DNA of 64,000 bases, taken from Methylobacterium haplocladii. Its GTDB lineage: Bacteria; Pseudomonadota; Alphaproteobacteria; Rhizobiales; Beijerinckiaceae. The stretch covers positions 1 through 64,000 of the forward strand of contig NZ_BJZT01000029.1 in assembly GCF_007992175.1 (NCBI RefSeq), read 5' to 3'. Positions 62,316 through 64,000 of the stretch are shown piece after piece. The position numbers and the translations under genes were made by a program. Every line of letters begins with the position of its first letter. The first letter of the stretch is position 1. The notes under the pieces were generated by a model. It searched no databases, had not been told where the DNA came from, and saw only the letters and a program-made list of their open reading frames with translations.

Positions 62316-62405
62316 GGAGGGGTGGCCGAGTGGTTGAAGGCGCACGCCTGGAAAGTGTGTATGCGGGAAACCGTATCGCGGGTTCGAATCCCGCCTCCTC
62401 CGCCA
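62316..62405 (+). tRNA. tRNA-Ser (GGA)
   Basis: The acceptor GGAGGGG (62316-62322) pairs with CTCCTCC (62395-62401), followed by the discriminator G and encoded CCA. The anticodon arm is CACGC-CTGGAAA-GTGTG, so the anticodon is GGA, reading UCC/UCU serine codons. A long variable arm follows, typical of class II tRNA-Ser, and the T arm is GCGGG-TTCGAAT-CCCGC. Its 3' end borders the recombinase remnant and the base-composition change, which is the usual arrangement at an integrated island. Confidence 0.97.
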
Positions 62406-62478
62406 CCATATAATCGAAAAACTCAAATTCGTGACTTCAGGCCGGCTCCTGACGTCCCATGCTTTGATGGGGCATGAC

Positions 62479-62800
62479 ATGGCCCAGCGAAACGTCCAAC
62501 GGTTGCATGCCGATGAACGATCGACACACGCCGACTACCTGACCGCACGGGCCGGGATCTGGCATTACGCCAGGCCTGCCCCGGTTGCCTTCACCGAACT
62601 CGACCCGCGCGGCGTCATCCGGCAATCCATCACAGATCCACGTCACCGACGACCCGACGATGGTGCGAGGCTCGCGCGCTGCTGCCACGATCGATGCATC
62701 GCCGATCCCGATCCCTATTTCGAAGAGGACGGTGCAGATGACAGACGGCAACGGCGATAGGCTACTGCCACGGTGGCGATCGTCACGTTCATTCCGATAG
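62479..62800 (+). pseudogene. Truncated, frameshifted tyrosine recombinase (integrase) remnant
   Basis: The frame from ATG 62479 reads THADYLTARAGIWHYARP, then FTELDPRGVIRQS. This resembles the N-terminal arm-binding segment of phage-type integrases in related bacteria (pattern: GxWxYxRRVPxxFxxLDxRGxxRxS). At about 62630 the match jumps to the next frame, IHVTDDPTMVRGSRAAATID, again integrase-like, so a one-base shift is inferred. The core-binding and catalytic domains are missing. It begins about 74 bases past the tRNA-Ser end and reads away from it, as integrases at tRNA sites do. The identification is by eye and needs a profile search. Confidence 0.55.
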
Positions 62801-62851
62801 CAAGACAGAGCTGATTTATCCCAGGCAGTCGCATCGTCATTTAGCATTAAT

Positions 62852-62882
62852 TCTGCAGAATGAACCAAAATTGTCTGCAGAA
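62852..62882. repeat. Pair of 9-bp direct repeats, 22 bp apart
   Basis: TCTGCAGAA occurs at 62852-62860 and again at 62874-62882, offset by 22 bases (two helical turns). The inner TCTGCAGA is itself a palindrome. The site lies between the recombinase remnant and the 3' end of the TIR gene. It could be a binding site or chance. Confidence 0.3.
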
Positions 62883-62904
62883 GCGAGGTAATATCATTGA
62901 TTGA

Positions 62905-64000
62905 TTAGTTTCTCATATATGCCAGCAAGGCATCGTTAAAGTGAAGGTGCTCTAAGAGTTTTGGAGGCGGAGCGATTGGCGGACCCTCGATCGGTATGGG
63001 TTGAATAAACGGAGGTCTATCTTCGGTATTCATCTTGAGGTTAAGGGCATATTCGATCTCTTTGGATACCCATTCAGAGTCCGCGGCAGAATGCGACCAA
63101 AACAACAAAAACACGTCGCATTTATCGATTTCTTTATACAATTGTTGGTTCCACCGATCTCCCGGGGCGAGACTCAATACATCTTGAAATATTTCTATTC
63201 CGGCAATCTTGAATGCCTGAACGCGCCGTAAAACCTCCGCTCGATCTTTGGATGCATATGACACAAATGCTCGCTTATAGCGTTGTATTTGTATTTCTTG
63301 TTGAGCGTACTGATTATCTTTTGAAATTTGTTTGCTTATTTTCAATATAAATCGAATTGCTCCAACCGGGACTCCTGAAACCGAAATTCTTATCCGGCCG
63401 ATGCTTTGTGGCATGGTAACAGTTTTTGGGACTGTGACCTCAAATTGAGTGACAACCGGTAGACCTTTCCAAACAATTACGCCGTCTGGTTCCAATATTT
63501 GCAGATGGTCTATCTCCGCTCTAAATTCGACACGCGTGCCAGACGGAATATCAAGTGGAAATGAGAAAACACCTTTCTTTACGGCATCGGGATCAGACAG
63601 TTTGATAAGTTTAGACGCCGCTTTTTCGAAGCCGGGCGAGTAAATGCATACTTGTAAAAGGAAGTCTGTTCCGGCTTGGACCTCGGGCGGACAAAAAACT
63701 GCCGCATCGACCGGGCAAAGATCGATTTCCTTTGGTATACGGTTAGATTTGCGTGCGCTGCGCGCAATGTCAGCTGCTGAATTTCCTGCTGTTTTTGCTG
63801 ATCGACTTGTCTTATTGTCAATTATCTCTTGTGAACGCAAGAACGCTGGGATGTCGAGTTCATCATCGGCCGTCACTCGTGGTTGCGATGTGGATCCGCG
63901 TGTTCCGGGAGAGGATCGCTCTCGAGGATGTGGCCCATCATCCTGAGAAGCATTTTCTTCACGGCGTCCCCCGAAGCCGACACTACTCAGGCGGCCCAAC
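62905..64000 (-). CDS. TIR domain protein with FtsZ-like C-terminal peptide in its N-terminal part (partial, runs off the window)
   Basis: The frame is open from the window edge to 62905; the visible 364 residues lack the true start, since no in-frame ATG occurs in the first 195. In order: a disordered Ser/Arg/Gly/Pro linker (visible residues 1-44); DDELDIPAFLRSQ (45-57, genomic 63829-63867), matching the FtsZ conserved C-terminal peptide; a basic linker; a beta-rich domain (about 94-224); and a TIR domain (about 241-364) with FVSYASKDR, a BB-loop region DVLSLAPGDRW, and SEWVSKEIEYAL, where Glu314 is the likely NADase residue. Base composition is clearly lower in GC than the rest. The whole protein is either an FtsZ-TIR fusion or a TIR effector with a tail mimic. 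Confidence 0.75.
   Translation of the reverse strand, partial: LGRLSSVGFGGRREENASQDDGPHPRERSSPGTRGSTSQPRVTADDELDIPAFLRSQEIIDNKTSRSAKTAGNSAADIARSARKSNRIPKEIDLCPVDAAVFCPPEVQAGTDFLLQVCIYSPGFEKAASKLIKLSDPDAVKKGVFSFPLDIPSGTRVEFRAEIDHLQILEPDGVIVWKGLPVVTQFEVTVPKTVTMPQSIGRIRISVSGVPVGAIRFILKISKQISKDNQYAQQEIQIQRYKRAFVSYASKDRAEVLRRVQAFKIAGIEIFQDVLSLAPGDRWNQQLYKEIDKCDVFLLFWSHSAADSEWVSKEIEYALNLKMNTEDRPPFIQPIPIEGPPIAPPPKLLEHLHFNDALLAYMRN

Follow-up and report, generated by a model that had tools for sequence, protein, structure and literature searches.

Locus and gene organisation

The window analysed here is a stretch of 64,000 nucleotides of Methylobacterium haplocladii DNA, corresponding to bases 1-64000 of a contig of 115,381 bases in a genome of 4.63 Mb. 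Its last part was found to hold the 3' portion of a gene for a TIR protein, situated within a region of low GC content that begins at a tRNA gene:

62316..62405, + strand: tRNA-Ser (GGA) (positions 2317-2406 of locus L002); a stretch private to this genome starts at its 3' end
62406..64000 in the window (contig approximately 62406-65194), no strand: low-GC stretch with the TIR gene, GC 0.51, flanks 0.67 and 0.70
62905..64000, - strand: in-window 3' part of the TIR gene (open reading frame and translation), with an ATG at contig position 64359 or 64377

The gene had been thought to begin beyond the window, and its frame does run past position 64000 to these ATG codons. It lies whole on its contig and encodes a protein of 484 aa (ATG 64359) or 490 aa (ATG 64377), with the former looking the likelier start due to a GGAG directly upstream. 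From its N-terminus the protein runs through a membrane helix, a linker predicted to be disordered and a beta-sandwich into a TIR domain. The helix is single and strongly hydrophobic; it spans residues 14-37, and its highest Kyte-Doolittle mean over 19 residues is 2.99. Positive charges come directly after it, which suggests that the protein C-terminal of the helix is placed in the cytoplasm. The linker is approximately 180 residues long, with the stretch before the beta domain predicted to be disordered. Pfam searches at E values up to 1 identified TIR families only, with no match to an FtsZ/tubulin GTPase, FtsZ_C or ZU5.

Among the matches listed, those of three genus genomes stop exactly at the last base of the tRNA-Ser, and both flanks of the low-GC stretch match genus relatives. 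A GC content of 0.51 between richer flanks, together with a boundary at the end of a tRNA-Ser, fits mobile acquisition of the stretch. A repeat of the tRNA end that might serve as a second attachment site was not found in the stretch checked. Upstream of the TIR gene on the - strand, contig positions 64719-64849 (approximately 4720-4850 of L002) resemble what we take to be the end of an IS5-type transposase. The TIR protein was identified in one of 111 genus genomes, its own, its absence from the other 110 resting on a search of the 111 at E 1e-9.

TIR domain and UPA-like domain

The C-terminal half of the protein consists of the following elements:

62938..63267, - strand: TIR domain (Pfam TIR_2), residues 371-480, 68.4 bits against a cut-off of 28
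63058..63060, - strand: Glu440 in a WVxKE context, invariant in a 29-row module alignment
63292..63741, - strand: UPA-like beta-sandwich domain, modelled stretch, residues 213-362

Glu440 is presumably the catalytic glutamate of TIR NADases, as judged from its role in SARM1, and a glutamate was found at this position by pattern in 37 of 38 relatives. The TIR fold resembles those of SPARTA, AbTir and SARM1. The match to Pfam ThsB_TIR scored 20.9 bits against a cut-off of 21.2, while the PADLOC ThsB model was matched at E 1e-6 via the TIR part. With PADLOC the protein matched only parts of TIR-bearing families, through the TIR region.

The beta-sandwich preceding the TIR domain resembles, in predicted fold, the UPA domains of NLRP1, UNC5/UNC5b and ankyrins, with a sequence identity of only 7-13%. 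In NLRP1, UNC5 and ankyrins the UPA adjoins a death-fold domain, whereas in the window protein a TIR domain follows the UPA-like part, and no ZU5 precedes it according to Pfam. Fusion of a bacterial UPA-like beta domain to TIR was observed at 63292-63741 of the window and at loci L046-L082. As a membrane-anchored bacterial TIR protein, the window protein is of a kind that has been linked to anti-virus suicide. Passages on ZU5/UPA in PMC8195603 describe no bacterial UPA-like domain joined to TIR.

FtsZ-tail motifs in the linker

An FtsZ C-terminal peptide, DDELDIPAFLRSQ, had been reported within the TIR protein in the initial annotation, and it was confirmed here at 63829-63867 (- strand). The linker was found to contain not one but two FtsZ-tail motifs in the same order as in FtsZ, VLLGRLSSVGFGGRREE followed by DDELDIPAFLRSQ. 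The first of these spans the window edge and only the second had been noticed earlier:

63955..64000 in the window (contig 63955-64014), - strand: FtsZ linker motif RRTVLLGRLSSVGFGGRREE, residues 122-141; profile 32.5 bits over residues 99-154
63829..63867, - strand: FtsZ end-peptide motif DDELDIPAFLRSQ, residues 171-183 (45-57 of the frame visible in the window); profile 14.1 bits over residues 164-183

The end peptide L(D/E)IPAFLR and the genus-type linker motif LLxRLAxVGFGGRR are thus both present. With a profile built on 15 FtsZ tails from within the genus, P0001 (the TIR protein) being left out, the TIR protein scored 45.6 bits (E 2.4e-12 for 5000 sequences) in these two matched stretches, the top score among 5000 shuffles of the linker being 9.2 bits. 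An order-wide profile (32 of 35 tails; L038, L101 and L103 omitted as cut or out of frame) gave the TIR protein 24.0 bits, the runner-up among 40 module proteins reaching 3.2. As judged by these scores, the FtsZ-tail likeness of the TIR protein exceeds chance.

Short linker motifs can arise by chance, and the linker of one relative (L069, of genome G060) contains SELEIPDLLGTRR. This LEIPDLL was rejected as an FtsZ tail and judged to be a chance likeness, due to its score of 5.0 bits and to the own FtsZ of G060 ending in VEFPEFLHRNNN. For the window protein, two motifs in the correct order and in a genus-specific form, at 45.6 bits against at most 9.2 for shuffles and with relatives scoring far lower, argue against such an origin. 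An assembly error joining an ftsZ tail to a TIR gene is disfavoured by the unbroken frame and by codons that are unlike those of ftsZ (only 10 of 22 equal to own ftsZ), with both flanks matching genus relatives among the matches listed. Chance likeness or assembly error can together be regarded as exceedingly improbable.

The copy departs from a genuine FtsZ end in several respects. The end peptide is internal and followed by 307 residues, one conserved Arg of FLRRQ is replaced by Ser, and the two motifs are separated by 29 residues rather than the approximately 52 of the FtsZ encoded in the same genome. A two-part layout is also seen for the ClpXP sites of E. coli FtsZ, which according to the accessible part of PMC3983244 lie in the linker approximately 30 residues from the end and near the C-terminus. 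The two motifs could on this ground be a ClpXP substrate signal, keeping the level of the TIR protein low until ClpXP is blocked. These sites are known from E. coli FtsZ and may not be the genus motifs, and the peptide is internal here, making a degradation signal a very doubtful explanation.

Source of the tail

The FtsZ of this genome is a protein of 565 aa encoded on contig C45, as is ftsA. It carries KRMSLLRRLATVGFGGRREE in its linker and, approximately 52 residues further, ends in DDDHLEIPAFLRRQAN. This normal ftsZ accounts for the sole FtsZ_C match in the genome and is located on a contig other than that of the TIR gene.

The motif GFGGRR was found in 15 of 16 FtsZ tails of the genus, the remaining one having GFGGKR, and in none of 33 FtsZ tails of other families (2 of the 33 being incomplete). 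Among 35 FtsZ frames of the order, 21 have an IPAFLR end and 26 an LLxRLA-like linker motif, with GFGGRR present in the own FtsZ only; a second row of the same genus (L038) is interrupted at GFGGRR, with the motif found in another frame. With GFGGRR being genus-specific, the FtsZ of the genus would be the model for the copied tail, by descent or by close fitting.

Two further observations were made on these FtsZ sequences. The helix-like motif LLxRLAxVG is conserved in FtsZ linkers of many families of the order (L003, L084-L113; 26 of 35 match a loose pattern). In addition, the ftsZ tail of G008 (L038) is divided between two frames, by either a sequencing error or a true frame change.

The stretch between the two motifs of the TIR protein showed a likeness to FtsZ no better than that of its own shuffles, suggesting that the motifs alone have been conserved in the linker. 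At the 22 identical residues, 10 codons were the same as in own ftsZ against 5.4 expected (p 0.023), and the highest of 15 codon comparisons with ftsZ gave 12 of 22 (p 0.0016). Agreement is slightly above expectation, and descent of the motifs from ftsZ is possible but not proven. The motifs might be a functionless relic, left by an ftsZ 3' end that shuffling had brought into the linker; the slightly high codon agreement and the occurrence of the motifs in one genome only would suit this. Retention of the motifs where the likeness between them is gone is unexpected for a neutral relic, and the remainder of the TIR gene is intact, so that a relic appears quite unlikely.

A search of 99 genus genomes with an FtsZ-tail alignment (5 rows, the tail of the TIR protein being one) gave matches in 97 and none in 2. 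Two matches each were obtained for twelve genomes besides the own genome (G000); these were taken as a single FtsZ in two pieces, due to the length of its linker, a change of frame or the end of a contig, and all matches apart from the TIR protein were read as FtsZ. A search of 99 relatives at E 0.001 matched 25 genomes, with 15 of the fetched loci being FtsZ tails and the others TIR parts.

UPA-like/TIR module family

The UPA-like beta domain and TIR were identified as a unit at 38 loci of named genomes by searching with a module alignment; a search of genome contigs with the single TIR protein gave no relative. Alignments A4, A5 and A6 cover 28 of the 38 loci along with the window protein, and one further module analysis covers 36 of the 38. 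Hosts include cyanobacteria, Accumulibacter, Acidobacteria and Alphaproteobacteria. Within the order, three of 397 genomes had the module at E 1e-25, the own genome among them; a search of 385 genomes of the class at E 1e-30 gave the own genome alone. Its distribution is sporadic. Two plasmid records were matched, one with the entire module, and a cyanobacterial plasmid copy adjoins caspase-family genes. The module gave no match among phages, and two relatives (L115 and L116) were identified on viral contigs. One of these (L115:1305-2753) is a TIR-beta-TIR protein adjoining apparent phage tail-protein genes. No FtsZ tail was found in a search of viral contigs.

Pfam, applied to 10 of the 38 relatives, identified LRR, protein kinase and PilM domains, pentapeptide repeats and a second TIR as N-terminal ends, while caspase/CHAT-like parts and single membrane helices were recognised by eye. 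From these sequences the N-terminal ends of the module are interchangeable. In an Acidobacteria MAG, a degenerate PilM is fused to the module (L065:3126-5804), with a normal PilM elsewhere in the same MAG (L118). The normal PilM scored 236.9 bits and the fused one 49.1 and 24.9 bits, at 20% identity. The fused copy has SAS at the position where the normal PilM has SGG, a change that presumably marks a dead ATP site.

When the FtsZ-tail profile was applied to 40 module proteins, the 45.6 bits of the window protein were followed at a distance by the 7.9 of L079, such that none of the 39 relatives had a comparable score; among the 39, L071 and L083 are without an N-terminal part, ORFs L048, L050, L058 and L077 leave their contigs, and L079 was scored in a single frame. 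The tail as a family-wide trait was excluded on this basis. As a separate observation, the TIR relative of G117 (L036/L042, L079) has its membrane helix and TIR part in different frames.

The initial annotation had offered two readings of the peptide, an FtsZ-like GTPase fused to TIR or a TIR protein carrying the tail as bait or sensor. The former was ruled out, as the sequence extended past 64000 contains no Tubulin/FtsZ domain by Pfam, its N-terminal part being helix and linker, and the only FtsZ_C match of the genome is the normal ftsZ. The latter gained support from the FtsZ linker motif being present beside the end peptide. The full protein lacks a GTPase domain and the relatives lack the peptide; this refutes a GTPase fusion and a family-wide rule. 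The tail itself is not refuted, and it has the look of a motif pair specific to the genus that was acquired in one genome.

Proposed role of the tail

The FtsZ tail in this immune-type TIR protein is most likely a bait or tether, and a bait or sensor role is the likeliest of several readings. We give about even chances to an inner-membrane, immune-type UPA-like/TIR protein whose linker copy of the host genus's FtsZ tail is a decoy or a division tripwire. The tail would sit in the cytoplasm beneath the membrane, where it could be gripped by any FtsZ-tail binder. This would be FtsA as long as the cell is healthy; it could also be a protein with which a phage or mobile element attacks division via FtsZ. 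Once such an intruder binds, or the normal partner is lost or clusters, TIR domains would be brought together, perhaps via the UPA-like part, and TIR assembly would cleave NAD+ and stop or kill the infected cell.

The decoy reading is favoured by both motifs being kept alone, in FtsZ order and with the genus-specific linker form; by FtsA being encoded in the genome, on the ftsZ contig; and by a TIR domain above its Pfam cut-off, with a fold like that of SPARTA, AbTir and SARM1. It is also favoured by a module that has varied N-terminal ends and lies beside caspase-family and viral tail-protein genes, by the relative that carries a diverged PilM in a MAG which also has a normal one, and by the precedents of CapRel-Ebc and of host-module uptake, as given in the accessible parts of PMC13423816 and PMC7159879. 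It is weakened by the occurrence of the tail in one genome only (1/111 in the genus), with relatives lacking it, and by the peptide being terminal in FtsZ but followed here by 307 residues, with Ser for one Arg of FLRRQ. CapRel-Ebc working without the FtsZ linker (PMC13423816, accessible part) and PADLOC matching only parts of TIR-bearing families via the TIR region weaken it further. No evident defence partner was noticed by eye among the genes next to it.

Alternatively, the tail may be a tether only, through which FtsA would place the TIR protein where the cell divides, or which competes for FtsZ partners and poisons division, with the trigger being sensed elsewhere. FtsA, the gene for which is present, is the first expected binder of the tail, and the membrane helix plus linker of the window protein resembles the layout of ZipA. 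A tether gives no account of the varied, mostly non-division N-terminal ends of the relatives, though none is required, and we consider this explanation unlikely.

The decoy reading can be tentatively extended to an integrated-decoy receptor, in which the tail of the own genus's FtsZ is built in and phage or mobile-element proteins that seize FtsZ tails would provoke NAD+ loss; the guarding of host machines by built-in copies, the degenerate PilM included, may be a habit of the family. Such a receptor holds a copy of a host target within an immune-type protein, and here FtsZ motifs and TIR occur together. Integrated decoys exist in plant receptors, and the window protein would, if this is true, be a bacterial counterpart. 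The state of the division ring would then be linked to NAD+ loss, and the protein may watch, or be steered by, the division machinery. The swappable ends of the UPA-like/TIR family may likewise name host machines attacked by phages. A single gene, FtsA and a short peptide would be enough to approach the question.

Comparison with known systems

A search of open-licence papers, mostly of titles and the beginnings of abstracts, gave no recognised account of a TIR protein that carries the tail of FtsZ. The C-terminal tail of FtsZ itself has a linker motif and an end peptide in the order seen in the window protein, which in contrast has no GTPase domain, an internal peptide, a spacer of 29 rather than approximately 52 residues, a membrane anchor and an attached TIR. 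According to the accessible part of PMC9939409, the FtsZ end peptide binds FtsA, ZipA, SlmA, SepF, ZapD, MinC and MapZ. Thoeris ThsB and the TIR-APAZ of SPARTA share the TIR fold with its glutamate but differ from the window protein in their sensor parts.

Immune proteins that sense phage proteins are known from bacteria, lately also one that senses a phage protein on FtsZ. The accessible part of PMC13423816 describes various modes of FtsZ block by phages, with T7 Gp0.4 bound to FtsZ as the trigger of CapRel-Ebc; deletion of the FtsZ linker had no effect in this case, suggesting that the linker part is not used. The window protein would resemble CapRel-Ebc in being of antiphage type with an FtsZ-linked trigger, FtsZ being a host division protein attacked by phages. 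CapRel-Ebc differs in sensing the FtsZ body in trans and in having a RelA-like toxin, whereas the window protein has the FtsZ tail built in and a TIR output. In the accessible part of PMC7159879, conflict systems are described that acquire host modules, mostly inactive and including division proteins, which were proposed to be decoys. The window protein is similar to these in having taken up a module of a host machine as a proposed decoy. The systems described there comprise MoxR-vWA, GTPase and allied multi-gene ones, which have taken up whole domains, in rare cases FtsZ/tubulin, whereas here a single TIR protein carries the tail motifs only.
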